A stretch of DNA of 33,711 nucleotides, taken from positions 1 to 33,711 of the IMG/VR virus record IMGVR_UViG_3300007609_000924, one strand, 5' to 3'. Positions 2,652 to 19,366 of the stretch are shown here, in pieces. This stretch comes from a virus. How positions within the stretch are numbered: the first letter of the stretch is position 1; the number at the start of each line of letters is the position of its first letter. Under the pieces are notes generated by a model, which ran no database searches, was not told the origin of the DNA, and saw nothing but the letters and a program-made list of their open reading frames with translations. A program made the position numbers and the translations under genes.

Positions 2652-3151
2652 TGAAAATACTTATAGATCAAAAAGAAATAGACCAATTGGTACAGTCTAT
2701 TGCCAAACGCATACAAATAGAATGGGATGAAACAACTGACAAAGTATTCATTTGTTTGTTAAACGGAGGATACATGTTTTTCTCAGATCTAGTAAAATGT
2801 TTACCTGATAACATTGAATGTGATTTTATGCGAGTTAAATCATATCACAATAAAAAACAAGGCGACGTACAGATTACTAAAGATTTAGAAATTCCAGTTA
2901 AAGGTAAAGATGTATACATTGTAGATGATATATATGACTCTGGGAACACGATCGGCGCAGTTACCGAGTATCTTCATGTTAAACACCCTAACTCAATCAG
3001 CATAGTAACACTAATTACCAGAGAATCGTCTCCAATACCGACAATACCTAGTTATCATGGAAAAACTATTGGAGAAGAATGGTTGGTTGGCTATGGCATG
3101 GATAACAGTAAAGGATATATGAGAAACACTACGGATATTTATGCAATTTAA
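2651..3151 (+). CDS. hypoxanthine/guanine phosphoribosyltransferase-like
   Basis: 166 aa type I phosphoribosyltransferase. The PRPP-binding signature is VYIVDDIYDSGNT (residues 88-100), preceded by LLNGG (36-40), the dipeptide-loop region of HPRT enzymes, and a K-S-Y-H flexible-loop segment (63-66). Length and order of motifs fit Hpt (purine base plus PRPP to nucleoside monophosphate). In a phage this suggests purine salvage, but a role in handling the 7-deazaguanine base made by the downstream FolE/QueD/QueE set is possible and unproven. Coupled to the nuclease gene by TAATG. Confidence 0.83.
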   Translation: MKILIDQKEIDQLVQSIAKRIQIEWDETTDKVFICLLNGGYMFFSDLVKCLPDNIECDFMRVKSYHNKKQGDVQITKDLEIPVKGKDVYIVDDIYDSGNTIGAVTEYLHVKHPNSISIVTLITRESSPIPTIPSYHGKTIGEEWLVGYGMDNSKGYMRNTTDIYAI

Positions 3152-3152
3152 T

Positions 3153-3181
3153 TTGGGTACGCGTATAAATTTCAATATTAT
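3153..3181 (+). promoter_or_regulatory. candidate promoter (TTG-20-TATTAT)
   Basis: TTG at 3153-3155 and TATTAT at 3176-3181 are 20 nt apart, equal to a 17 bp -35/-10 spacer. A TTTCAA segment sits just before the -10, as at other members of this set. It lies in the 35 bp gap before the helicase gene; the start codon follows within 6 bases, so a transcript from here would have almost no leader. Confidence 0.45.
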
Positions 3182-3186
3182 AATAT

Positions 3187-4548
3187 ATGACGAATAATGA
3201 CAAATTAAATGAATACGGAAAAACATTTCAAATAAAAGCGATCGCTGCAATGTTTGTAGATAGATCATTTCTACAACAGATTGCTGATATAATCAGACCA
3301 GACTACTTTGACTCAGAATCAAATATTTGGATACTTGAGGTAGTGCTAAGCCATTTTGCACAATATAAATCACCCCCAACTAAAGATGTACTCAAAGTTC
3401 GAATAACAGATATAACAGACGATGTTTTAAAAACTGCTATATTAGAACATCTCAAAGACATATTCCGTTATATGGAGTCATCAGATCTGGATTTTGTTAA
3501 ACAAGAAATATTAAAATTCTGTAAAAATCAAGAGATTAAGCATGCAATACAAGATTCTGTACAACTTTTACAAAACGGCAATTATGATCAAATAAAAGAA
3601 AAAATTGACGCTGCAATGAAAGCAGGAGCTGATACTGATATCGGCCATGAGTACAAAAAATCAGTGATATCTCGTTACAATGAAGCGTCTAGAAATACAG
3701 TACCATCAGGGTGGGATGTTGTTGACGATTTAATGGACGGAGGATTAGCAGATGGAGAATTAGGAGTAGTAATGGCACCTGCAGGAATTGGGAAATCATG
3801 GCTCTTAATTAATATAGGAGCAAACGCACTTAAACGAGGTAAAAATGTAATCCATTATACTTTAGAATTAAATCAAGACTATGTAGGTCAGCGGTATGAT
3901 TCTGTAATTACCGGAATAGGAGCTCAAAATCTGAAACATCATATTAGTGAAATTGAAGATAAAGTAGAATCAATTCCTGGTGAATTAATTATTAAATATT
4001 TTCCTACTAAATCAGTTGGAATTATGGGGTTAAAAGCTCATATCGAAAAAACTATAATATTAGGTGCGAAACCAGATCTTGTAATTGTAGATTATGCCGA
4101 TCTTCTAAAAGTTAATAATAAAAAAGACAAACACGAAGCATTGGAAGACTTATATGAAGAACTTCGAGGTATGGCTGGAGAATATGGACTACCAGTTTGG
4201 ACCGCTTCTCAAGCTGGCAGATCTGCACTCGAAGAAGATATTATCGAAGCCGATAAAATTGCATCGTCATATGGAAAGGTGATGGTAGCTGATTTTTTAA
4301 TGTCATTGGCTCGTAAAGTTGAGGATAAGCTATCTGGTACGGGTAGGGGACATGTTATAAAAAATCGATTTGGACCTGATGGAATTACACTTCCTAGTAA
4401 AATTAACACAAATAACGGACAATTTCAATTTTTTGAACCGCAGACATCACAAGGAAAACAGACGTCAAAACAAATGAAAACTGGAGAGACATTAGTTAAG
4501 AAAAATCTTGCGCAAAAGTTTCAAGATTTAGGAGGATCATTGGGTTAG
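3187..4548 (+). CDS. gp41: replicative DNA helicase (gp41/DnaB family)
   Basis: 453 aa hexameric 5'-3' helicase of the DnaB/T4 gp41 class. The N-terminal part (about 1-150) is helical, as expected for the DnaB N-domain. The RecA-like motor has Walker A APAGIGKS (197-204), the H1a-like HYTLELNQ (223-230) and Walker B VIVDYADLL (299-307), then TASQAGRS and a C-terminal VKNRFGPDG-type arginine-finger region. No primase domain is fused and no primase gene is recognised in the window. A terminator-like hairpin follows the stop, closing the uvsX-helicase unit. Confidence 0.92.
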   Translation: MTNNDKLNEYGKTFQIKAIAAMFVDRSFLQQIADIIRPDYFDSESNIWILEVVLSHFAQYKSPPTKDVLKVRITDITDDVLKTAILEHLKDIFRYMESSDLDFVKQEILKFCKNQEIKHAIQDSVQLLQNGNYDQIKEKIDAAMKAGADTDIGHEYKKSVISRYNEASRNTVPSGWDVVDDLMDGGLADGELGVVMAPAGIGKSWLLINIGANALKRGKNVIHYTLELNQDYVGQRYDSVITGIGAQNLKHHISEIEDKVESIPGELIIKYFPTKSVGIMGLKAHIEKTIILGAKPDLVIVDYADLLKVNNKKDKHEALEDLYEELRGMAGEYGLPVWTASQAGRSALEEDIIEADKIASSYGKVMVADFLMSLARKVEDKLSGTGRGHVIKNRFGPDGITLPSKINTNNGQFQFFEPQTSQGKQTSKQMKTGETLVKKNLAQKFQDLGGSLG

Positions 4549-4635: not shown

Positions 4636-6492
4636 ATGGACATTTCAACTAAAATTTTATCAGACATTACAGTGTATATGAAATATGCAAAGTATTTACC
4701 CGAATTAAGTCGCCGGGAAACGTGGGAAGAGTTAGTAACTCGTAACAAAAATATGCACATTAAAAAATATCCAAAATTAACAGATGAAATCAATGATGTA
4801 TATAAATTAGTATATGATAAAAAAATTCTTCCATCAATGCGTAGTTTACAATTTGGCGGTAAACCAATTGAAATTTCGCCAAATCGGGTGTATAATTGTG
4901 CATATTTGCCAATTGACGACTATCGAGCATTCGGAGAGACTATGTTTTTATTATTAGGTGGTACGGGAGTAGGTTATTCTGTACAACAACATCATGTAGA
5001 AAAATTACCAGATATAATAAAACCAAATCTAAATAGAACGAGACGGTTCTTGATTGCAGACTCAATCGAAGGATGGGCAGACGCAGTAAAAGCTCTAATT
5101 AAGAGTTATTTTACTGGAACATCAAAACTCAAATTTGATTTTTCGGATATTAGAGCAAAAGGTGCTAGACTAATTACATCAGGTGGCAAAGCTCCAGGAC
5201 CACAACCTTTAAAGGAATGTTTAATTAAGATACAAGGTATTTTAGATTCTAAGGATAATGGAGACAAATTATCTCCAATTGAAGTTCACGACATTGTATG
5301 TCATATAGCAGATGCAGTACTAGCAGGAGGTATTAGACGAGCTGCTCTAATTTCCCTATTCAGTGCAGACGATGAAGATATGATTTCTTGTAAGTCTGGT
5401 AATTGGTGGGAAATTAACCCACAAAGAGGAAGAGCAAATAATTCTGCAGTATTGATGAGACATAAGATTACTAGAGAATTCTTTATGGATTTATGGAAAC
5501 GAATTGAACTATCAAATGCTGGTGAACCAGGAACATATCTAACAAATGATAAAGATTGGGGAACCAACCCTTGTTGTGAAATCGCGTTACGTCCATTTCA
5601 ATTTTGTAATTTATGTGAAGTAAATGCATCGGATATCAAATCACAAGAAGATTTCGAACATAGAGTCCGCGCAGCTGCATTTATAGGTACCTTACAAGCA
5701 GGATATACTGACTTCCATTATCTTAGGCCCATATGGAAAAGAACCACGGAAAAAGATGCTTTAATCGGGGTATCTATGACAGGCATCGGGTCTGGAACTG
5801 TATTAAAATATGACATGACATCAGCAGCTGAAGTTGTTAAACAAGAAAATGCCCGGGTTGCTAAATTAATTGGTATTAATAAGTCTGCTCGTACAACTAC
5901 TGTGAAACCAGCTGGAACGACATCGTTGGCATTAGGTACAAGTTCAGGAATACATGCATGGCATAATGATTACTATATTAGAAGAATTCGCGTAGGAAAA
6001 AATGAAGCAATTTATACATATTTATCAATTAATCACCCAGAGTTAATTGAAGATGAATATTTTAGACCACATGATACTGCAGTAATTTCAATACCACAAA
6101 AAGCACCAGCTGGTGCGATTATGAGAACCGAAACACCAATTGAATTGTTAGAGCGTATAAAGAAAGTGCACTTAGAATGGGTTAAGCCGGGACATCTCGA
6201 TGGAAATAATACTCATAACGTTTCGGCAACTATATCATTAAAACCAGATGAGTGGGATATTGCATCAGAATGGATGTGGGAGAATAGAAATCATTATAAT
6301 GGGTTATCAGTATTACCATATAACGGCGGAACATATATCCAAGCTCCATTCGAAGACTGTACGGAAGAACAATATAATGAGATGATGAAATCATTGAATT
6401 CTATAGATTTATCGAAAGTAATTGAATTAGACGACAATACCGACTTATCCGGTGAGTTAGCCTGCGCAGGAAATGCATGTGAAATTGTTTAA
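4636..6492 (+). CDS. nrdJ: adenosylcobalamin-dependent class II ribonucleotide reductase
   Basis: 618 aa monomeric-type class II RNR (ribonucleoside-triphosphate reductase, RTPR-like), reducing ribonucleotides to deoxyribonucleotides with B12 as radical source. Key residues align in spacing with Lactobacillus RTPR: C88 (in VYNCAYLP) and C324 as the active-site redox pair, NPCCE at 311-315 with radical Cys C313 and E315, and C-terminal C610 and C615 in CAGNAC, the pair that relays electrons from thioredoxin. PAGTTSLALGTSSGIH (near 424-440) is typical of the RNR barrel. It is shorter than the roughly 740 aa bacterial enzyme. A phage thioredoxin gene lies at 10599. The reaction would depend on host cobalamin. 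Confidence 0.92.
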   Translation: MDISTKILSDITVYMKYAKYLPELSRRETWEELVTRNKNMHIKKYPKLTDEINDVYKLVYDKKILPSMRSLQFGGKPIEISPNRVYNCAYLPIDDYRAFGETMFLLLGGTGVGYSVQQHHVEKLPDIIKPNLNRTRRFLIADSIEGWADAVKALIKSYFTGTSKLKFDFSDIRAKGARLITSGGKAPGPQPLKECLIKIQGILDSKDNGDKLSPIEVHDIVCHIADAVLAGGIRRAALISLFSADDEDMISCKSGNWWEINPQRGRANNSAVLMRHKITREFFMDLWKRIELSNAGEPGTYLTNDKDWGTNPCCEIALRPFQFCNLCEVNASDIKSQEDFEHRVRAAAFIGTLQAGYTDFHYLRPIWKRTTEKDALIGVSMTGIGSGTVLKYDMTSAAEVVKQENARVAKLIGINKSARTTTVKPAGTTSLALGTSSGIHAWHNDYYIRRIRVGKNEAIYTYLSINHPELIEDEYFRPHDTAVISIPQKAPAGAIMRTETPIELLERIKKVHLEWVKPGHLDGNNTHNVSATISLKPDEWDIASEWMWENRNHYNGLSVLPYNGGTYIQAPFEDCTEEQYNEMMKSLNSIDLSKVIELDDNTDLSGELACAGNACEIV

Positions 6493-8200: not shown

Positions 8201-8902
8201 ATGACAGACAAACAACGAAAAAACTTAGAGATAGTTAACGCTGGGTTTGCCAATGGCATATCAACCCAGCTGGCAAATAAACAAGCTATATTCGGTGCAG
8301 ATGCTAGATTAACCACAGAAGAAAAACAATCTATTATTGACGACGCTGCATTTCATTATGGAGAATTTCTTCGAGCATTAGGAGTAGAGTGGGAACAAGA
8401 TCCAAACTCAGACAATACGCCTCGCAGAGTTGCTAAAGCATATGTTAATGATTTATGGCGCGGTCGTTATGAGCCAATGTCAGATATTACTTCGTTTCCG
8501 AGTGACGGATATGATGGTATTGTGTTCGAAGGAGGAATTCCATTAACATCAATGTGTAGCCATCATCATCAAACCGTCGAGGGATTGTGCCACATTGCAT
8601 ATATTCCAGCAGAAAAAGGAAATGTAGTTGGGCTAAGTAAATTGAATCGCGTTGTTGAACATTTCGGCCGAAGAGGTGCAATACAAGAACAATTAACAGT
8701 TGCAATTCAACATGCTGTCAATGAACTTATTTCAGACAATAAAGGAGTTGCTGTAATGATCGAAGCAACACACAATTGTGTATCTTGTAGAGGTGTTAAG
8801 CACCGTGGAGCTTCAATGAAAACTGCAAAATTATCCGGGGCATTCTTAGACGATGGTAATGCTCGATCAGAATTTTATCAATTTATCAAAGGTTATAATT
8901 AA
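8201..8902 (+). CDS. folE: GTP cyclohydrolase I (FolE)
   Basis: 233 aa. It converts GTP to 7,8-dihydroneopterin triphosphate, the first step of folate and 7-deazaguanine synthesis. Zinc ligands are C119 and H122 in SMCSHHHQTVEG and C193 in HNCVSCRGVKHRG; YIPAEKGNVVGLSKLNRVV (134-152) and RRGAIQEQLT are family blocks. Its position directly before queD and close to queE points to deazaguanine rather than folate metabolism. The first 40 residues are an extra extension without motif. The ATG at 8201 lies in an AAGTTACATG context shared with other starts here. Confidence 0.95.
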   Translation: MTDKQRKNLEIVNAGFANGISTQLANKQAIFGADARLTTEEKQSIIDDAAFHYGEFLRALGVEWEQDPNSDNTPRRVAKAYVNDLWRGRYEPMSDITSFPSDGYDGIVFEGGIPLTSMCSHHHQTVEGLCHIAYIPAEKGNVVGLSKLNRVVEHFGRRGAIQEQLTVAIQHAVNELISDNKGVAVMIEATHNCVSCRGVKHRGASMKTAKLSGAFLDDGNARSEFYQFIKGYN

Positions 8903-8903
8903 T

Positions 8904-9368
8904 ATGGCAAAATTTACATCAACAAAACTATTTGACGGTTACTCTACATGTTTCCGACAATGGCGCGCAGATGGCACACATTGCAAATATCTACATGGCT
9001 ACGCGGTATCATTTAGAGTATGGTTTGCGGGAGAATTAGATCACAGAAACTGGATATTTGACTTCGGTGGAATGAAACGTGCGAAAACAAAAATTCACGG
9101 TATGGCCCCAAAAGACTATTTTACATATCTTTTAGATCATACAACAGTTGTAGCAGAAGATGATCCACATTTACCACAATTCAAGCAAATGGATCAAGAT
9201 GGTATTATTCAACTTAGAATCCTCCCAGCTGTAGGATGTGAAAGGTTTGCGGAGTATTTATTTAATACAATAAATAATTTCTTAAAAGAAGAAACAAATG
9301 GCAGAGTTAAAGCGATTAAAGTAGAAGTATACGAACACGACCGTAATTCAGCAAGTTATGAAGAATAA
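8904..9368 (+). CDS. queD: 6-carboxytetrahydropterin synthase (QueD-like)
   Basis: 154 aa T-fold enzyme, expected to turn dihydroneopterin triphosphate into 6-carboxy-tetrahydropterin. HCKYLHGY (residues 26-33) holds the catalytic Cys C27; DHTTVVAEDDPH carries the Asp-His of the catalytic relay; GCERFAEYLF and VEVYEHDR are the C-terminal blocks. The usual HGH zinc pair reads HGY and the N-terminal His position reads STC (C16), so zinc binding is altered; I recall similar sequences in cyanophages. An in-frame start at 8853 exists, but 8904, one base after folE, gives the normal family N-terminus. Confidence 0.85.
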   Translation: MAKFTSTKLFDGYSTCFRQWRADGTHCKYLHGYAVSFRVWFAGELDHRNWIFDFGGMKRAKTKIHGMAPKDYFTYLLDHTTVVAEDDPHLPQFKQMDQDGIIQLRILPAVGCERFAEYLFNTINNFLKEETNGRVKAIKVEVYEHDRNSASYEE

Positions 9369-9766: not shown

Positions 9767-10537
9767 ATGAACAAATTGTTAGATTATAATAAAACTTTGC
9801 CTGTTGTTGAAGTATATCCATGTGTACAATCAGAAGGTAGTCGACAAGGTATGCCTACAATTGCAATTCGCACTACAGGGTGCACACATCGGTGTTATTT
9901 TGGCGAAGGGGGCTGGTGCGATTCATGGTACACGAGTATTCATCCAGAAAAAGGCACATTTACATTCAATGATATAATCAAAATATATAATGACAATCCG
10001 CATATAAAAGAAATGATGTTAACTGGTGGATCTCCTACTATGCATTCAGGGTTAGTAAATGAGTTAGTTAACTTTGCATCTGAACGAGGCATAGTGGTAA
10101 CAATAGAAACAGAAGGAAGTCATTTTATTGAAACAGATATACCAATTGACTTAATTTCATTATCTCCGAAATTTTCAAATACTATACCAAAATTAGGAGT
10201 AGCAACCCCTGCAGGTAAAGAAACAACCCAACGGATGATAGATCAACACAATAAATTCAGATTAAATCATACGACAATAAAACAAATGATTGAATATCAC
10301 CATGATTATCATTATAAACCTGTTTGGGATGGGACTGAATATAATCTTAAAGAAATTGAAGAATTTAGAGTATTACATAACATACCGAAGTCAAAAACAT
10401 GGATTATGCCAGCTGGGGATCGTAGAGAAGAATTAATTAAAATATATCCAAAAACAATTGAAATGTGCACTAAACACGGATATAATTTTACCGGACGTGA
10501 ACATATAATGGCATATAACACAGAAAGAGGAGTTTAA
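9767..10537 (+). CDS. queE: 7-carboxy-7-deazaguanine synthase (QueE), radical SAM
   Basis: 256 aa. It converts 6-carboxy-tetrahydropterin to 7-carboxy-7-deazaguanine (CDG) with S-adenosylmethionine and a 4Fe-4S cluster. Family marks are VEVYPCVQSEGSRQGMP near the N-terminus, the cluster cysteines C39, C43 and C51 in CTHRCYFGEGGWCDSW, and MLTGGSPTMH (about 85-94), the SAM-binding GGxP block. The Cys spacing is CX3CX7C instead of the usual CX3CX2C; insertions at this place are known in some QueE proteins. With folE and queD it completes the route to CDG. Confidence 0.92.
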   Translation: MNKLLDYNKTLPVVEVYPCVQSEGSRQGMPTIAIRTTGCTHRCYFGEGGWCDSWYTSIHPEKGTFTFNDIIKIYNDNPHIKEMMLTGGSPTMHSGLVNELVNFASERGIVVTIETEGSHFIETDIPIDLISLSPKFSNTIPKLGVATPAGKETTQRMIDQHNKFRLNHTTIKQMIEYHHDYHYKPVWDGTEYNLKEIEEFRVLHNIPKSKTWIMPAGDRREELIKIYPKTIEMCTKHGYNFTGREHIMAYNTERGV

Positions 10538-11166: not shown

Positions 11167-11406
11167 ATGTGGATAGAACTACTCGGTTGGGTTAGCACGG
11201 TGCTGGTTTTATTTGGATTTATATTAAATTCATCACAAAGATTAGTACCTGCTATAATTGCTTGGATAATTGGAGACACGGGCTGGATTATATATGATAT
11301 TTTTATAACTAATTATAGTCATATGTTTCTTAGTTTTATTATAATAACAATCAATATATACGGAATATACAATGTATCAAAACATCGCATACCACAAAAA
11401 GACTAA
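11167..11406 (+). CDS. small membrane protein, three predicted TM segments
   Basis: 79 aa, almost entirely hydrophobic. Segments at about 5-20 (LLGWVSTVLVLFGFIL), 27-46 (VPAIIAWIIGDTGWIIYDIF) and 51-68 (MFLSFIIITINIYGIYNV) could span the membrane, with a basic C-terminus. The GWV...N...W.IGD.GW.IYD...N pattern resembles small PnuC/YgjV-type proteins, but I cannot assign a substrate. The last 35 bases overlap the start of the polymerase gene in another frame. Confidence 0.66.
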   Translation: MWIELLGWVSTVLVLFGFILNSSQRLVPAIIAWIIGDTGWIIYDIFITNYSHMFLSFIIITINIYGIYNVSKHRIPQKD

Positions 11407-13126
11407 TACAATTCATTTATGGGATGATGAAATTGGATATAAAAAATACAATTTTAAGCCATATGGTTATCTACCTGATGAGTCAGGTCAATACAAAACA
11501 TTGGACGGTATAAAGCTGAAACGTGTCAATGGCAACATTAAAAATGATCCAAACTCATATGAATCAGATCTAAATGAAGAAATGAGAACACTGATCGATG
11601 TATATTATGAATCGGATTTAGCATCAAATTCACATCGAGAATTATTTTTTGATATTGAAACTGCTAAAGACGAAAATGGATATTCTACACCAGACGATGT
11701 TCGCACAGAAATAAATGCAATTGCTTATTATGATAAACAACAAAATGATCGGCGAGTATTACTTCTAGACTCTAATAATGTTTTAAATCATGATACATAT
11801 CAAGGCGATGGATATAAAATCGAAGTATTCGATACAGAACAATCACTATTAACAAGGTTTTTAAACATATGGTCAAATATAGCTCCAACAATAGTAACAG
11901 GATGGAATAGTGACGGGTATGATATTCCATATTTAATAAATAGGTGTAAGCGAGTATTAGGTAAACAGTCAATTGACTCATTGTCTCCGGTAGGAATTGT
12001 AGAGTGGAACAAACACAAGGGGCAATATAAAATTTACGGAGTTTCTAGTTTAGACTACATTAAATTATATAAGAATTTTACGTATAGTGAATTGCCAAAT
12101 TACCGATTAGATACAGTCGCAAAAACTGAATTGGGCCGAGGAAAAGTAGAATATAACGGAGATTTAGATGAATTGTTCCGAGAAGATATTCACAAATTTG
12201 CATGGTACAACATGACTGATGTGGATTTGGTTGCTGATTTAGATGAAAAATTACAATTATTGAATTTGGCTCGAACTATATGTCATAAAGGCCACGTACC
12301 ATATGAAGATGTATATTACGCATCTAAATATCTAGATGGAGCGGCAATCGTAGATTTAAAACGTAACGGATACGTTGCTCCCAATAAACAATTTAGATTC
12401 ATAGAAGATGAAACGCCACAGGATGCATTAGCCGGAGCATATGTTATGCCACCGGTACCAGGGTTATATAAATGGATATATGATTTAGACTTAACATCAT
12501 TATATCCTAGTATTATCATGAGTTTGAATATTTCACCGGAAACTAAAGTAGGAGTAGTTCGAAATTGGAATCAAGAACAAATGTTAAGTAAAGACCCATT
12601 TGATGTTGCAGTTAGCGACGGTAATACATCAATCGATGTGAAAGATTTTAAGAAATGGCTTCGTGAAACAAAGTCTACCGTAGCTAGCAATGGAGCTATA
12701 TATTCTACCAAGAAAAAAGGTTTTCTGCCTGCTATTTTGGAAAAATGGTTTGATGAACGAGTTGAATTTAAGAACAAGCGTGATGAATACGAAGTAGGGT
12801 CAGAACAATACAAATTTTATGATGCCATGCAGCTCACACAGAAAGTGTTGCTTAATTCATTTTACGGAGTATTAGGACTCAAAACATTCCGGTTTCATGA
12901 TCTTGACAATGCAGGTGCTATCACCGCAACAGGACAGAGCATTATTAAATTCTCATCAAAAGTAATTAATAAATACTATGAAAAAGAAATAACAGAACGA
13001 GATCGATTGCACGAAATACATCTTGAAGATGGTACAGTTAAAAAATATAAAGGCTGGGATGACGTAAAAACGCAACGTGGTATCGTTAAAGTTTGTAATT
13101 TAAAGGAAACCGATGAAATTATTTAG
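11372..13126 (+). CDS. gp43A: family B DNA polymerase, N-terminal part (exonuclease, motifs A and B)
   Basis: 584 aa. The start MYQNI...TIHLWDDE matches the N-terminus of T4 gp43, so the 35-bp overlap with the previous gene is real. Exo I is FFDIETA (92-98), Exo II TGWNSDGYDIPYL, Exo III YNMTDVDLVADL; palm motif A is DLTSLYPSI with D373 and motif B KVLLNSFYG (491-499). The protein stops before motif C. The last 40 or so residues (LHEIHLEDG...KTQRGIVKVCNLKETDEII) are not expected in a gp43 at this place: T4 has about 57 residues from motif B to motif C, whereas 85 follow motif B here. They resemble the second half of a Hint/intein domain. The remainder of the enzyme is encoded at 14088. Confidence 0.93.
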   Translation: MYQNIAYHKKTNTIHLWDDEIGYKKYNFKPYGYLPDESGQYKTLDGIKLKRVNGNIKNDPNSYESDLNEEMRTLIDVYYESDLASNSHRELFFDIETAKDENGYSTPDDVRTEINAIAYYDKQQNDRRVLLLDSNNVLNHDTYQGDGYKIEVFDTEQSLLTRFLNIWSNIAPTIVTGWNSDGYDIPYLINRCKRVLGKQSIDSLSPVGIVEWNKHKGQYKIYGVSSLDYIKLYKNFTYSELPNYRLDTVAKTELGRGKVEYNGDLDELFREDIHKFAWYNMTDVDLVADLDEKLQLLNLARTICHKGHVPYEDVYYASKYLDGAAIVDLKRNGYVAPNKQFRFIEDETPQDALAGAYVMPPVPGLYKWIYDLDLTSLYPSIIMSLNISPETKVGVVRNWNQEQMLSKDPFDVAVSDGNTSIDVKDFKKWLRETKSTVASNGAIYSTKKKGFLPAILEKWFDERVEFKNKRDEYEVGSEQYKFYDAMQLTQKVLLNSFYGVLGLKTFRFHDLDNAGAITATGQSIIKFSSKVINKYYEKEITERDRLHEIHLEDGTVKKYKGWDDVKTQRGIVKVCNLKETDEII

Positions 13127-13127
13127 T

Positions 13128-13155
13128 GTATCTGTATAGTTTCAGTATCCGTATA
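13128..13155 (+). repeat. short direct repeat in the endonuclease leader
   Basis: GTATCTGTATA at 13128-13138 and GTATCCGTATA at 13145-13155, ten of eleven bases identical with a 17-base period, right after the gp43A stop. Purpose unknown; it could be a protein-binding site or a chance of the AT-rich leader. Confidence 0.4.
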
Positions 13156-13170
13156 TATATTTATATTAAA
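13156..13170 (+). promoter_or_regulatory. candidate late-type promoter motif before endonuclease gene
   Basis: TATATTTATATTAAA, identical over 15 bases to 4552-4566 and related to motifs at 14947, 24144, 30964 and 33115. An AAAAGGA Shine-Dalgarno-like sequence follows at 13168-13174, so this mobile gene seems to carry its own start signals. Confidence 0.38.
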
Positions 13171-13178
13171 AGGACATT

Positions 13179-13997
13179 ATGGATAAAGTAGAATGTTTAA
13201 TATGTAATAAAAAATTCAAACGAATTACAACAACACATTTACGCCATGTGCATGGAATATCATATGATGAATATTTTAAATTATTTCCGGATGCAATTAT
13301 AGAAACGCCTGCAATAACTCAAAAAAGAAAACAAACATTAGAAAATATGATTTTGAGATACGGGGTTGATACAGGAACACAAAAATGGAATGAATATATT
13401 TCAAAGCAAGCTGAGACAAATACATACGAATATAAAAGAAAAAAATATGGGTGGACTAAAGATGAATTTAATGAATACAATAAATCGAGAAGTCATAGTG
13501 GCTCATCAAACGGAAATTATGGCCGGGGCTTTTATAAAATTTGGGTAGAAAAATATGGAAAGGAGGTTGCAGATAAAAAGTTAAACGAGTTTAAAGAAAA
13601 AATATCGATTGCTAACACAGGCCGATCAGTTAATTTTTCAAAACAAGCATTGCAAAACATGCGAGAAGGGGCAATTGAACGTGTTAAAAGACAAGGCGGA
13701 CTGTTCATTTCATATAATCCAAATTCAATACCAATCATCGAAGAATATGGAAAACTTCGCGGATATAACTTCCAACACGCTGAAAATGGCGGAGAATATA
13801 ATGTTTGTGGTTATTTTGTCGATGGATATGATAAAGAAAAAAATGTTGTAATTGAATATGATGAAAAACATCATTTTACTAAAAATGGAGTATTAAAAGA
13901 CCGAGATGTTATACGGCAACAAGATATAATGAATGAGTTAAGTTGTAAATTCATTCGTATAAATTATAAAGGAGAAATAACAGAATATGAAAATTAA
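13179..13997 (+). CDS. free-standing homing endonuclease, EDxHD (Vsr-like) type
   Basis: 272 aa inserted between the two parts of the polymerase gene. N-terminus: a C2H2-like finger (C6, C9, H20, H23/H25 in CLICNKKFKRITTTHLRHVH) followed by GISYDEYFKLFPDA, common in phage homing nucleases. Middle: a KISIANTGRS NUMOD-like DNA-binding segment (141-150). C-terminus: the nuclease core GYFVDGYD...VVIEYDEKHHF (211-233) and KDRDVIRQQDI (240-250), matching the EDxHD family related to very-short-patch repair nucleases, described in genes fractured around split inteins. It has an AAAAGGA leader, unlike most neighbours. Its end overlaps a 34-codon ORF that leads into gp43B. Confidence 0.87.
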   Translation: MDKVECLICNKKFKRITTTHLRHVHGISYDEYFKLFPDAIIETPAITQKRKQTLENMILRYGVDTGTQKWNEYISKQAETNTYEYKRKKYGWTKDEFNEYNKSRSHSGSSNGNYGRGFYKIWVEKYGKEVADKKLNEFKEKISIANTGRSVNFSKQALQNMREGAIERVKRQGGLFISYNPNSIPIIEEYGKLRGYNFQHAENGGEYNVCGYFVDGYDKEKNVVIEYDEKHHFTKNGVLKDRDVIRQQDIMNELSCKFIRINYKGEITEYEN

Positions 13998-14091
13998 AAA
14001 AATTATAAAAGGGAATGTCGGTGTGGATACGAGTCACTTTATCAATGCAACAGGTGGTAAAGCAGAGTACTCGTTTTACACCGACACGTGA
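13987..14091 (+). other. 34-codon ORF carrying the first half of polymerase motif C
   Basis: ATG at 13987 overlaps the endonuclease end by 11 bases; the TGA at 14089-14091 overlaps the gp43B GTG (GTGA). It reads MKIKKIIKGNVGVDTSHF..., then AEYSFYTDT. The final YTDT is the start of the family B motif C (YTDTDS), whose TDS is in another frame in gp43B. Relative to an intact ACACGGATTCG, five extra bases (TGACG or an equivalent register) separate the halves. MKIKKIIK resembles the beginning of split-intein C fragments, but the expected terminal HN is absent. It may be a translated coupling peptide, a remnant, or part of an RNA element. Confidence 0.55.
14016..14086 (+). repeat. inverted repeat/hairpin just upstream of gp43B start
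   Basis: TGTCGGTGT (14016-14024) pairs with ACACCGACA (14078-14086), then after a 4/3-base internal loop ACGAGT (14029-14034) pairs with ACTCGT (14069-14074): 15 base pairs, G+C-rich for this genome, enclosing 34 bases. The 3' arm is the sequence encoding YTDT of motif C, and the GTG start of gp43B begins two bases after it. It could mask the start, be part of a ribozyme, or be a scar of the insertion. Confidence 0.8.
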
Positions 14092-14930
14092 CGGATTCGA
14101 CATTTGTTTCTAGTTTACCACTCATAGAAAAACGGCATCCGGGATTTGATGAAACAGATGAACAATTCATGATTGACAAAACTAATGATATTGCATCTGA
14201 AATACAAAGCCACGTTAATGCAATGTATGATCAGTATGCTGTGGTATTTCATAACACTGCCACACATCGCTGGCAAATTAAACAAGAATATGTTGCAAAG
14301 TCAGGTTTATGGATAGCTAAGAAGCGGTATGCGCAGTGGGTTATATTTAAAGAAGGAAAGCCAACCAATAAACTAGATATAAAAGGATTAGACGTAGTTA
14401 GGTCAAGTTTTCCGGCTGATTTTAAAAAGATTATGACTGAAACTTTATGGATGATACTCAAACAAGTAGACAAACAAACTACGTCTGATTTAATTTTAAA
14501 GTTCAAAGATAACATTCATGATTCTGATATATTAAATGTAATGAAGAATACCGGAGTAAAAGAAATAAGCAAATATACAAAAAACCGCAATCCGTTTACT
14601 GGTTATATAACAGGTACGCCAATTCATGTAAAATCTGCAATTAATTTTAATGATTTAATTAATAAATTTAATATACGAAACTGCACCACAATAACAAATG
14701 GCGAAAAAATTAAATGGGCATATTTGAAAAATAACCCATATGGATTCGACACGATGGCTTTACGAGGACACGAAGACCCCACAGAGATAATAGAATTTGT
14801 TGAAACATATATAGATCGAGACAAAATCTTCGATCGGGAACTAAGAGGCAAATTAGATGACTTTTATTCGGCAATGAACTGGGGAATATTACCACAAAAC
14901 AACAATATGGGAAAATTCTTTAAATTTTAA
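14088..14930 (+). CDS. gp43B: family B DNA polymerase, C-terminal part (motif C, thumb)
   Basis: 280 aa from a GTG start; the frame is closed upstream at 14058-14060, and the first in-frame ATG would delete motif C. It begins MTDSTFVSSLP, so it retains TDS of motif C but lacks the preceding Asp. KSGLWIAKKRYAQWV (about 70-84) is the KKRY DNA-binding motif. The C-terminal half is the thumb region, and the tail MGKFFKF resembles a clamp-binding peptide like the gp43 C-terminus. Together with gp43A it adds up to 864 aa, near T4 gp43 (898). In some Aeromonas T4-like phages gene 43 is split into two cistrons that form a working enzyme. Confidence 0.88.
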   Translation: MTDSTFVSSLPLIEKRHPGFDETDEQFMIDKTNDIASEIQSHVNAMYDQYAVVFHNTATHRWQIKQEYVAKSGLWIAKKRYAQWVIFKEGKPTNKLDIKGLDVVRSSFPADFKKIMTETLWMILKQVDKQTTSDLILKFKDNIHDSDILNVMKNTGVKEISKYTKNRNPFTGYITGTPIHVKSAINFNDLINKFNIRNCTTITNGEKIKWAYLKNNPYGFDTMALRGHEDPTEIIEFVETYIDRDKIFDRELRGKLDDFYSAMNWGILPQNNNMGKFFKF

Positions 14931-14946
14931 CATTAAAAGTTACTTG

Positions 14947-14967
14947 TATATATTTATTATAAATAAT
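14947..14967 (+). promoter_or_regulatory. candidate late-type promoter motif
   Basis: TATATATTTATTATAAATAAT at 14947-14967 includes TATAAATA (14958-14965), the T4 late promoter sequence. It lies in the 61 bp gap before the gene at 14992. Confidence 0.45.
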
Positions 14968-14991
14968 TTGTTTAAATAAAGAAAATCTTAA

Positions 14992-15408
14992 ATGAAAAAC
15001 ATTAAAATGAAAGAATTGCTAGCAGAAAATATGAGAAGATTCGGTACCAAGAATCTGATGCCACTACATGAATCTGCACTAAGCGATGACGATATTCTTG
15101 ACATTATCTTAACATACACCAAAGATCCAGACGATGCCCAAGCAGCTCTAGAATCATATCGAGAAACTGGAAATTTTGGTGATGACACAATTGAATCCAA
15201 TGTGACTCAAGATCCAAGGTGGACTTCTGATACTGATAAACGCAATGAATCTGTAACTATTACCAGAGCATTATTCGAGGATTTAGTAGCAACGATTTCA
15301 AACCTTCCTATAACTGAAGTTGAAAAAATGAGTGATATGGAAAAAGAAAACATACTTTTAGATTTTTCAGACGATACCAAGCTAAAGAAGAGTAAGTTTT
15401 ATCGATAG
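14992..15408 (+). CDS. uncharacterised phage protein, MRRFGTKNL N-terminus
   Basis: 138 aa. The N-terminus MKNIKMKELLAENMRRFGTKNLMP is an amphipathic basic segment that I have seen at the start of various marine phage proteins; the function is not known. Next come an acidic DDDILDIILTYTKDPDDAQAALESY helix (about 38-62), a polar linker, and a helical end with a basic KLKKSKFYR tail. No enzyme motif, no membrane segment. It is flanked by a late-type motif upstream and a strong terminator downstream, so it is probably transcribed alone and perhaps late. Confidence 0.72.
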   Translation: MKNIKMKELLAENMRRFGTKNLMPLHESALSDDDILDIILTYTKDPDDAQAALESYRETGNFGDDTIESNVTQDPRWTSDTDKRNESVTITRALFEDLVATISNLPITEVEKMSDMEKENILLDFSDDTKLKKSKFYR

Positions 15409-16914: not shown

Positions 16915-18117
16915 ATGACAAATAAAGACATTAGAACAGTATGGTATTTTTCGCTAGAACCACTCAAAGCCAGATACACATATCAATTATCAAAAGAGTG
17001 GATGCCGGCAACATTTGCCCCATATGAGAAAGCTAATAAACTAAAATTTGTTGATGTTCCAGGAGAATTTGATCCAGATCAGCAAATTAAAGTAGGCGCA
17101 GTATTAGATGCAGTCGGTCGAGGTAAGTTTGCTATGAGTCAATGTAGCAATTTCTTGGACATGTTGAATAACGATTTAGTTAAAGACGGAGATGTGTTAT
17201 TTCTGCAAGACTATTGGCATCCTGGTATTGAATCTATATTATATGCATTAGACTTATATGGTATCAATGTTAAAATATATGCAATGCTCCACGCACAATC
17301 AGTAGATGAATATGATTTCACATGGCCCATGCGAAATTGGATGCGAGGCTTTGAATTAGGTTTAGATCAGAGAATGGCTGGTATATTTGTCGGTTCGACA
17401 ATTCATAAAGAACAATTAAGAGCAGCAGGATTTAAAGCCCCAATTCATGTAGTTTCATTGCCATTACATAAAGAGTTAACTAAGCAGAAGTTACCTGGGT
17501 ATAAAGAGCATTCGCTACGAAAAGAAAATTATGTAGTATATTCAAGTCGTCTAGACAAAGAAAAGAATCCATTCTTCATGATAGAAGTTGCAGAACAATT
17601 CTTAGATGAAAATGAATTATGGGAATGGCACGTAACAACATCCGGTCAGAGTTTTAAATCAATGTTGCCGGGAGCTATAGAGGCATTAGAAACACTGGCT
17701 AAAAAACAACCTAGATTCAAATTATTAAATAATTTAACGAAAGAACAATATTATAATGAATTAGCATTAGCGAAAATTCAATTTAATAGTTCATTGCAGG
17801 ACTATGTGTCATGGACAGTGTTAGAGTCAACTACATTTGGCTGTGAATTAGTATTTCCAGACTTCAGATCATTTCCAGAATTTATTCCTCAGAATAAATT
17901 ATATAAACCATTCAATGTCAAATCAGCATTACATACTTTAAATAATGTTAAAACTACAAACAGATCTGGCATTTATTATAATTTTCCTGACATATCAGAT
18001 TTAGGTAGACGAATGGAAGCATATATTATTTCCAATGACATTACGCAAGAGTTAAATGTATGGCATGAGTCTGCATATTGTACGCATTTATTAAATACAC
18101 AAGGAATACATGAATAA
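16915..18117 (+). CDS. GT-B glycosyltransferase-like protein
   Basis: 400 aa. N-terminal half with VWYFSLEPLKARYTYQLSKEW and GDVLFLQDYWHPGIESILYALDLYG, then YAMLHAQSVDEYDFTWPMRNW and IFVGSTIHKEQLRAAGF; the C-terminal half opens with VVYSSRLDKEKNPFFMIEVAEQF, the typical GT4 linker, and later has SLQDYVSWTVLESTTFGCELVFPD, where the E of VLES is in the family acidic position. It overlaps the DpdA-like gene by eight bases, unlike the other glycosyltransferases that cluster after 24 kb. A role in decorating DNA is therefore possible; glycosylation of another target is equally open. Confidence 0.72.
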   Translation: MTNKDIRTVWYFSLEPLKARYTYQLSKEWMPATFAPYEKANKLKFVDVPGEFDPDQQIKVGAVLDAVGRGKFAMSQCSNFLDMLNNDLVKDGDVLFLQDYWHPGIESILYALDLYGINVKIYAMLHAQSVDEYDFTWPMRNWMRGFELGLDQRMAGIFVGSTIHKEQLRAAGFKAPIHVVSLPLHKELTKQKLPGYKEHSLRKENYVVYSSRLDKEKNPFFMIEVAEQFLDENELWEWHVTTSGQSFKSMLPGAIEALETLAKKQPRFKLLNNLTKEQYYNELALAKIQFNSSLQDYVSWTVLESTTFGCELVFPDFRSFPEFIPQNKLYKPFNVKSALHTLNNVKTTNRSGIYYNFPDISDLGRRMEAYIISNDITQELNVWHESAYCTHLLNTQGIHE

Positions 18118-19366
18118 AAAAGACTTTTTATACATTCCATCATTGTCAGCTGGTTCTATGGTGTCAGCTTTCAAGAAAAATACTAAATTTTCAGATGGAA
18201 CTACAATGCGATTTTTCTCAAAAGAATATCCAGAACAATGGCGCCATCCATATTTCCTAGTAACCGCCGGCCATCATTATAAGAAAATGGATTTCCGTCA
18301 ACAGTTAGGATTAGATGACGGTACATTTGTATTCGGAGACTCTGGTGGATTCCAAATTGCAACTGGTGCACTAAAATGGGATGGGACTATCAGAGAAAAG
18401 ATATTTCATTGGTTAGAAGCTAATAGTGACGTAGCAGCTAATTTAGATATACCGCCTCGAGTAACATTTGAAAATCGATTCAATGATGCAATGGATATAT
18501 CATTTGATAATTTTAAATGGTTTGAAAAACATCAATCAGGTAAAACTAAATTTCTCAACGTAATACAAGGAACATTTAATGAAGAATATTCTACTTGGTA
18601 TCATAAATTCAAAGATTTTGATTTTAACGGCTGGTGTATAGGCGGTCCTAAGAAATTAGTAGATTTCATGTATGTGATTGCACTCATGCTGCAAGAAAGA
18701 GAATTCGAAAAGAACCATGTACAATACATACATTTATTGGGCATTTCAAAGATATCTGATTTCTTTATTCTAGGAACTATACAGCATTTATTAAACGGAT
18801 TAACTGGTGGTAGAGTGCAGCTTATGTCAGATTCGTCTTCTCCGGGCCAATATCCAGTATTTGGTACATATTTGCATTCAAGTAATTACAAGACACAGAC
18901 ATTTACGGAATTATATTTTCCTAAAAATGCAGAGTATCGCCGAAAAACTCATATCAAACAAGGTAAAGAAGGAATTGTTGATATCGATAAAACTAAACAT
19001 GTTGCGTGTAGTATTGAATGTCCAGCATGTAATGATTTTACATATGAATACCTAGGAGGCCAGACGTCAACTGGTTTAGACAGATATTCACAAGAAGGTA
19101 TGCCTAGAATGGTAGTTCATAACGTGCACATATACTGTGAAATGGTTAAGGATATCAATAAATTAACCGAGCACCATGTAGAGTTACTAGAAACAGTATT
19201 ACCGAAAAATCTTTACGATGTTATATTATCATTGCATGAAATGTTTGCATCGCCGGATGACGCAATGAAAGTATATTCAACATATAAAAAGACTTATAAG
19301 AAATTCGGCGGCGATTCAATATCAACTACCGATGCAAATAAATTCAACGAATTCTTTAAATTTTAA
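18110..19366 (+). CDS. dpdA: DpdA-like DNA deazaguanine transglycosylase (TGT family)
   Basis: 418 aa, related to tRNA-guanine transglycosylase. FGDSGGFQ (75-82) has the TGT active-site Asp (D77), NVIQGT (150-155) and CIGGP (176-180) are substrate-binding loops, LMSDSSS (238-244) gives D241 at the nucleophile-region position, and C300, C304 and C307 (ACSIECPACNDF) with a later NVHIYC His form the zinc site. Phage and bacterial DpdA enzymes swap guanine for 7-deazaguanine bases in DNA and protect it from restriction. FolE, QueD and QueE are encoded 8-10 kb upstream, which favours a DNA-modifying role over tRNA. Confidence 0.85.
   Translation: MNKKDFLYIPSLSAGSMVSAFKKNTKFSDGTTMRFFSKEYPEQWRHPYFLVTAGHHYKKMDFRQQLGLDDGTFVFGDSGGFQIATGALKWDGTIREKIFHWLEANSDVAANLDIPPRVTFENRFNDAMDISFDNFKWFEKHQSGKTKFLNVIQGTFNEEYSTWYHKFKDFDFNGWCIGGPKKLVDFMYVIALMLQEREFEKNHVQYIHLLGISKISDFFILGTIQHLLNGLTGGRVQLMSDSSSPGQYPVFGTYLHSSNYKTQTFTELYFPKNAEYRRKTHIKQGKEGIVDIDKTKHVACSIECPACNDFTYEYLGGQTSTGLDRYSQEGMPRMVVHNVHIYCEMVKDINKLTEHHVELLETVLPKNLYDVILSLHEMFASPDDAMKVYSTYKKTYKKFGGDSISTTDANKFNEFFKF

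Follow-up and report, generated by a model that had tools for sequence, protein, structure and literature searches.

A T4-Type DNA Polymerase Gene Interrupted at Two Sites

The stretch of DNA analyzed here (the window) is a 33,711-nucleotide (nt) fragment of a viral genome, IMG/VR record IMGVR_UViG_3300007609_000924, and carries a T4-type family B DNA polymerase gene that is interrupted twice. All coordinates are positions in this window unless another locus is named (Table 1), all evidence is sequence-based, and the IMG/VR contigs are metagenomic fragments. The first split lies between KEI (residue 540) and HFINATGG, and adds a 44-residue tail to gp43A, a nuclease gene between the halves, and a head, MKIKKIIKGNV, to the downstream open reading frame (ORF). 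The second break falls within the catalytic motif C, at the junction between this 34-codon ORF and gp43B. Judging from the sequence features described below, we see about an even chance that the head and gp43B are joined by a ribosome hop of 5–6 nt, similar to that on T4 gene 60.

Besides its matches to the Pfam exonuclease and DNA_pol_B families, gp43A matches phrog_262. In gp43A the last 44 codons, and in the 34-codon ORF roughly the first 13, belong to the inserted cassette and are not polymerase sequence, so that the ORF consists of a cassette head (MKIKKIIKGNVGVD...) followed by a polymerase segment (HFINATGGKAEYSFYTDT). gp43B, which begins MTDSTFVSS..., is in a different frame from this ORF; its GTG and the stop of the ORF overlap as GTGA at 14088–14091, and polymerase sequence resumes with GAT TCG at 14094. 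An earlier, sequence-only reading had placed motifs A (D373) and B in gp43A, YTDT in the 34-codon ORF, and a restart at TDS at the GTG of gp43B in another frame, and direct reading, coordinates and translation agree with it on each of these points. No second polymerase gene was seen in the window, which is only a fragment, and no tRNA gene was found in the window or in five loci tested, leaving no link to a phage tRNA-Thr.

We fetched 80 close relatives of gp43B from viral contigs, the nearest being 85% identical. All are uninterrupted, and all but one read ...YYEKEIGKDHFINATGxKAEYSFYTDTDSTF or equivalent; the exception, L010 (L numbers denote related loci), is a one-residue DTVS variant. The sequence-only reading had also held that five extra bases split YTDTDS and had proposed an alignment with uninterrupted homologs, and this alignment does show the five bases. 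Nonsynonymous (dN) and synonymous (dS) divergence of gp43B between the window and the uninterrupted relative L013 is 0.088 and 1.54, compared with 0.068 and 1.19 for the uninterrupted pair L002–L013. gp43B is thus under the same purifying selection as uninterrupted copies, although part of this signal may predate the break in the window lineage. An AlphaFold2 (AF2) model of L013, of moderate confidence (predicted local distance difference test, pLDDT, 69), has RB69 gp43 as its best match (E 1e-35). The model places the first split at the end of helix 511–540 and the second at the turn between strands 556–559 and 564–567, strand limits near motif C being approximate at this pLDDT, and either cut is sterically conceivable.

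Table 1. Features of the split polymerase locus, in window coordinates.
Feature	Positions	Strand	Description
gp43A, whole	11372–13126	+	584 residues; motif A DLTSLYPSI from D373, motif B KVLLNSFYGV at 491
gp43A, polymerase-derived part (residues 1–540)	11372–12991	+	Exonuclease, motif A D373, fingers/motif B; ends ...NKYYEKEI
gp43A tail (residues 541–584)	12992–13126	+	TERDRLHEIHLEDGTVKKYKGWDDVKTQRGIVKVCNLKETDEII, then stop; cassette-encoded; resembles middle blocks of intein/Hint domain
Homing-endonuclease-like gene	13179–13997	+	EDxHD/Vsr-like C-terminal domain; family of 77 loci
Shine-Dalgarno-like AAAGGAG	13968–13974	+	5' of 34-codon ORF; direct sequence reading
34-codon head ORF	13987–14091	+	MKIKKIIKGNVGVDTSHFINATGGKAEYSFYTDT, stop TGA; overlaps nuclease gene end; ends ...AEYSFYTDT-TGA
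RNA hairpin	14016–14086	+	5' arm 14016–14028 TGTCGGTGTGGAT; 3' arm 14074–14086 TTTTACACCGACA, which is motif C codons
Second break	14086–14093	+	ACG (last sense codon, candidate take-off), TGA stop, ACG at 14091–14093 (candidate landing codon)
gp43B	14088–14930	+	GTG start; rest of palm and thumb; DNA_pol_B and phrog_262 matches

The Break Within Motif C Recurs in Divergent Phages

In the window the break reads TAC ACC GAC ACG TGA CG GAT TCG, and GACACGTGACGGATTC occurs once, with a chance expectation of 0 at up to two mismatches. Breaks of the same form, ACG-TRA-N(2-3), are found at the identical codon in L287 (ACG-TGA-CA-GATTC), L289 (ACG-TGA-TG-GATTC), L273 (ACG-TAA-CC-GATTC) and L162 (ACG-TAA-ATG-GATTC), the last of which is represented by a second assembly, L269, that also reads ACG-TAA-ATG. 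L287 and L289 were found by scanning with a pattern built from the breaks of L162 and L273. The same RCGT signature is present in L227, where GCG is followed by a 42-nt insert with a hairpin of 9 base pairs (bp) and a stop. This hairpin, at 5964–6002 of L227, is perfect (TTCTCCCCG...CGGGGAGAA), and a Shine-Dalgarno-like GGGGAG lies just before ATT-GAT-ACA-GAT. The motif C break is thus recurrent and not a one-off error.

The five short-gap members (all but L227) have further features in common. The stop directly follows the ACG codon in 5/5, and ACG encodes this Thr in all five but in only 27 of 190 uninterrupted copies. The codon before GAT is AYN in each case, giving take-off/landing pairs of ACG/ACG in the window and ACG/ACA, ACG/ACC, ACG/ATG and ACG/ATG elsewhere, which is consistent with re-pairing of tRNA-Thr. 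No Shine-Dalgarno sequence precedes gp43B in any of the five, and L273 has no ATG, GTG or TTG before the catalytic Asp in the gp43B frame.

Outside these loci the pattern is scarce. A scan of 84,980 bacterial and archaeal genomes returned three matches, none in a polymerase frame. In viral contigs, apart from one unrelated match, the 6-nt pattern was found only in the L162 contig and in L269, the sibling assembly, and the 5-nt pattern gave nine matches, six of them copies of one unrelated sequence.

Two other arrangements occur at the same place. L083, L163 and L186 are split at the first site, yet their DTDS is intact and in frame, so that head and gp43B form one chain; the position and layout of this gp43B 5' end are those of the 34-codon ORF in the window. 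In LR756508 (L082), a complete cis-intein (S...HN) sits exactly at YTD|TDS of gp43B. The same polymerase (LR756508.1, 1364–9288) has three insertions in all: an intein-like block before SVYGIMGLP in the motif B region, the gp43A/gp43B split, and the cis-intein.

An RNA Hairpin Abuts the Break

The end of a hairpin coincides with the break in all six broken copies, the 3' arm being the motif C coding sequence and the 5' arm lying in the head. The window hairpin, with arms TGTCGGTGTGGA and TTTACACCGACA and an upper stem, ends at the A of ACG (fold z -3.1); its counterparts are ATCGGTGTAGAC-TATAAT-GTCTACACCGAT in L287 and GTCGATGTAGAT / ATCTACATCGAC in L162. We recoded whole heads synonymously, using each contig's own codon usage, and compared fold stability. 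The z-scores for the six broken copies were -5.2 (window), -5.9, -5.5, -6.9, -3.9 and -6.2 (combined P 2e-12), whereas the natural controls, three same-site splits with motif C intact, showed no hairpin signal (-1.9, 0.1 and 0.0).

Across the six phages, the 13-bp stem has two-sided changes at 5 of its 13 pairs, and its covariation score is reached by none of 500 shuffles and by no slid version. A count of pairs, allowing G-U and recoding the 5' arm alone, gave a weak result (P 0.002) because the amino acids already force much of the pairing; whole-head recoding is far stronger. The motif C codons of the window (GAG TAC TCG TTT TAC ACC GAC) differ from those of L013 (GAA TAT GCA TTT TAT ACT GAC) by silent changes toward pairing, the sole replacement being Ser/Ala. 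In 2.9 megabases of fetched sequence, a near-perfect hairpin (no mismatch and at most one G-U in 10 bp) directly 5' of ACGTRA was found only in these elements. The hairpin element is thus selected at the nucleic-acid level, beyond coding, and RNA is the likely level of this selection because the hairpin persists with different nuclease genes or with none.

The First Split Carries a Mobile Cassette With Intein-Like Relics

LR756508, L083, L162, L227, L287 and L289 are split at the same first site as the window, while the contigs of L163, L186 and L273 begin after gp43A and run through a nuclease gene into the head. The heads start alike across split loci (MKIKKI, MIIKKI, MKIKNI, MKIIKIKK, MKTKKI, MIVKSI), and the content between the halves varies: an EDxHD/Vsr-like nuclease gene in the window, L083, L163, L186 and L273, a NUMOD3/GIY-YIG-like gene in L287, other genes in LR756508 and L162, and no nuclease gene in L289 and L227.

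H200, E206, D215, E226 and H232 are invariant in 42 members of the nuclease family, and family members match NUMOD3, DUF559 and REase_MTES_1575, the latter two in 5–6 members. The C-terminal domain of the AF2 nuclease model matches Vsr (Z 6.9) and I-Bth0305I (Z 6.8), scores that are tied with those of other PD-(D/E)XK nucleases. An EDxHD/Vsr-like nuclease gene does lie between the halves, in line with the sequence-only reading, and is a putative EDxHD homing endonuclease. In the gp43B tree the window falls among 25 uninterrupted relatives (support 100/100), and broken and split copies are scattered; therefore, the cassette moves between lineages.

L083 carries, upstream of its present nuclease gene, the remnant of an older nuclease C-terminus with an L162-type head (~4756–4800, within 4640–4860), which suggests that one cassette has replaced another. 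Its gp43A is interrupted a second time, at 3048–3740, by another ORF resembling a homing-endonuclease gene (HEG) between fingers-region segments.

The gp43A tail is absent from the 80 uninterrupted relatives and has matches in L083, L162, L227, L287, L289 and LR756508; a search with the tail profile for further members returned only assemblies of the L162 and L083 types. The tails of L227 (E 9e-4) and L287 (E 6e-3) match PF14890 (Intein_splicing), both below the curated cut-off, and the window tail gives no match. When a profile of seven tails was compared with the PDB, the two best matches were inteins in the same register (Pab PolC intein, E 0.007; TFIIB intein, E 0.009), weak scores by which a tail looks like the latter half of an intein N-fragment. 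The tails begin after block A and have neither the N-terminal Cys/Ser nor the block-B His (TxxH), and the head has no C-terminal HN. With these catalytic elements missing, an active split intein at the first split is not supported and splicing is not expected; the link to split inteins drawn in the sequence-only reading is not borne out in this form. The intein-like relics may serve in docking.

A Candidate Ribosome Hop and Its Alternatives

The following scheme would connect these observations. A mobile cassette has split the polymerase gene where the helix preceding motif C ends, giving gp43A its tail and the downstream ORF its head. The same type of cassette carries the second break, made up of a hairpin with motif C as its 3' arm, ACG, an in-phase stop, 2–3 bases and GAY-TCN. 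Most probably, ribosomes translating the head ORF would halt on reaching ACG-TGA and, assisted by the hairpin refolding behind them, skip 5 nt (6 nt in L162) to land on a Thr or Thr-like codon before GAT. The hop would yield a single head-gp43B chain with YTDTDS intact, the same product that L083, L163 and L186 make directly, and this chain would pair with gp43A as the polymerase. By analogy with T4 mobA/gene 60, the broken site may shield the gene from the cassette's own nuclease.

A hop accounts for the stop directly after ACG, the conservation of ACG, the abutting hairpin and the startless L273, where a restart cannot give an active enzyme since no start precedes the catalytic Asp. Several observations pull the other way. 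The presumed landing codon is ATG in L162 and L289, a poor partner for tRNA-Thr and a good start codon, and in the window and L287 a GTG overlaps the stop. In L227 the codon is GCG rather than ACG, and the GGGGAG before ATT in its insert suits a restart as well as a hop. At 21–34 codons the heads are shorter than the 46 codons of gene 60, and a role for the nascent peptide is only putative. A ribosome whose P site holds ACG would enclose most of the hairpin 3' arm. Finally, members free of an HEG keep the break, so protection from a nuclease cannot be its sole use.

The strongest of the alternatives, which also fits much of the sequence and which we rate less likely than a hop, is termination-reinitiation: the head ORF would be read to its stop and the ribosome would restart at an overlapping or adjacent start (GTG in the window and L287, GTG or ATG in L289, ATG in L162, ATT in L227). 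The polymerase would then have three chains. Its motif C beta-hairpin would be severed at the turn, leaving the first Asp on the head peptide and the catalytic one close to the gp43B N-terminus. Stop-start overlaps in 4/5 short-gap members, the change from ACN to ATG in two lineages (L162 and L289), the Shine-Dalgarno-like GGGGAG within the L227 hairpin, and the location of the cut between two strands in the L013 model all speak for a restart. On the other hand, L273 offers no usable start ahead of the catalytic Asp, a GTG arises automatically wherever TGA follows ACG, no Shine-Dalgarno sequence precedes gp43B in the five short-gap members, and a peptide of 21–34 residues would have to supply the central palm strand at the active site.

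It is improbable that the break is merely a scar of cutting at a conserved mobile-element target, tolerated or decaying, with the hairpin a mutational by-product and gp43B poorly or not made. The cis-intein of LR756508 does indicate that motif C attracts mobile elements, and insertions recur at one codon, but in six phages the hairpin shows compensatory changes and selection beyond that for coding, gp43B is open and under strong purifying selection, and the window, a fragment, has no other visible polymerase gene. Removal of the extra bases from the RNA, by splicing or by hairpin-guided cleavage and ligation, would fit a structured element abutting the break. We regard it as highly improbable: 11300–15000 has no credible score for an Rfam intron family up to E 5, the insert is only 5–6 nt, and members without an HEG lack the length to hold a group I or II intron. 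A sequencing or assembly error is barely conceivable, even though the contig is metagenomic and its nearest relatives are uninterrupted, given that the same break, with the hairpin tied to it, is found in separately assembled contigs of divergent phages, including two L162-type assemblies.

Three further candidates were rejected. A group I or II intron found no Rfam covariance-model match in 11300–15000; a slippery-site frameshift does not fit, since GAC ACG TGA is no slippery sequence and shifting by -1 would produce DTVTDS; and stop readthrough would be out of frame in the window, L273, L287 and L289. The sequence-only reading had suggested that recoding could restore motif C, and the recurrent, RNA-structured break in five or six phages supports this, making recoding or reinitiation much more likely than assembly error.

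Comparison With Known Systems

In T4, an HEG split the topoisomerase gene, and a second insert in gene 60, starting with an in-phase stop, is bypassed, aided by the nascent peptide and by a stem-loop on the 5' side; a protective role against the nuclease has been proposed for this insert (PMC5009743, PMC11194080, PMC3014915). It is established that bypassing drops when the gene 60 5' stem-loop is removed by synonymous changes (PMC11194080), and our recoding test is the computational counterpart of that manipulation. As in T4 gene 39/mobA/gene 60, a homing-endonuclease insertion splits the gene of an essential enzyme, and the downstream gene has, close to its start, a second small insert that opens with an in-phase stop following directly on a sense codon, an arrangement also seen in L287 and L273. 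Both systems have a 5' stem-loop upstream of the take-off codon, and here the recoding and covariation tests indicate that it is maintained at the RNA level. Unlike in gene 60, the enzyme is a polymerase, the gap is 5–6 nt (42 in L227) instead of 50, the take-off codon is ACG instead of GGA, the short gap has no take-off stem-loop, the break is in a catalytic motif, and the arrangement occurs in several phages with different HEGs or none. Moreover, bypassing of gene 60 is established and the hop here is only predicted from sequence. Because it has neither a take-off stem-loop holding the take-off and stop codons nor a gap of ~50 nt, we do not file the window as a member of the gene 60 type.

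With fractured genes containing split inteins (Dassa et al. 2009, cited in PMC12350094), the locus shares an EDxHD/Vsr-like nuclease gene between the halves and intein-like sequence on both sides; it differs from them in having only middle intein blocks, with no block A Cys/Ser, block-B His or C-terminal HN, so that trans-splicing is not expected. The gp43A/gp43B of Aeromonas phages 25 and 44RR is likewise a two-piece T4-type polymerase with an HEG in between, and the two pieces from phage 25 co-purify and are active (PMC2988022), an analogy that supports two-piece polymerases in general. However, 43A of phage 25 stops short of motif B, its last residues being ...ASRGIKTDH, and the 43B of that phage contains a group I intron, whereas motif B of the window is in gp43A; the sequence-only reading had invoked the Aeromonas phages as a parallel, and theirs is not the same arrangement. 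The cis-intein of LR756508 shares with the window the same two codons and the same first split, but is a complete intein and not a hairpin-stop junction.

Bypassing of T4 gene 60 was described as apparently unique in 2010 (PMC3014915). In a 2016 review the established cases are still T4 gene 60 and yeast mitochondria, and Streptomyces phages are listed as candidates (PMC5009743). In the open-access literature, subscription papers being outside our scope, we found no report of bypassing in a polymerase gene. We tentatively propose, at somewhat less than even confidence, that the present loci are a second natural family of programmed bypassing in phages, carried into at least five phage polymerases by a gene-splitting mobile cassette, with a minimal hairpin-ACG-stop element for a 5–6-nt hop in the catalytic motif of an essential enzyme. 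Several polymerases show an architecture comparable to that of gene 60, accompanied by covariation and set against natural controls that have the same first split, an intact motif C and no hairpin signal. It can now be tested whether translational repair elements are a routine part of HEG cassettes and what a hop minimally needs. If reinitiation is the true mechanism, a replicative polymerase cut within its catalytic motif would be equally surprising. Under both mechanisms, an annotation pipeline will report three broken genes although they probably yield a working enzyme.

Neighboring Genes and Other Split Polymerases

Elsewhere in the window are a QueD-like PTPS gene (8853–9368), a radical SAM gene (9767–10537; QueE-like by neighborhood) and a gene for a TGT-family protein (18110–19366), a set that possibly serves 7-deazaguanine DNA modification. 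L289 also has a TGT-like gene near its polymerase. In the cyanophage Synechococcus phage S-H34 (L160, 2944–5730), the polymerase is split at a different place, with a small ORF overlapping both halves, and a similar annotation is found in MC09, MA01, MA10, ME01 and S-CREM2.

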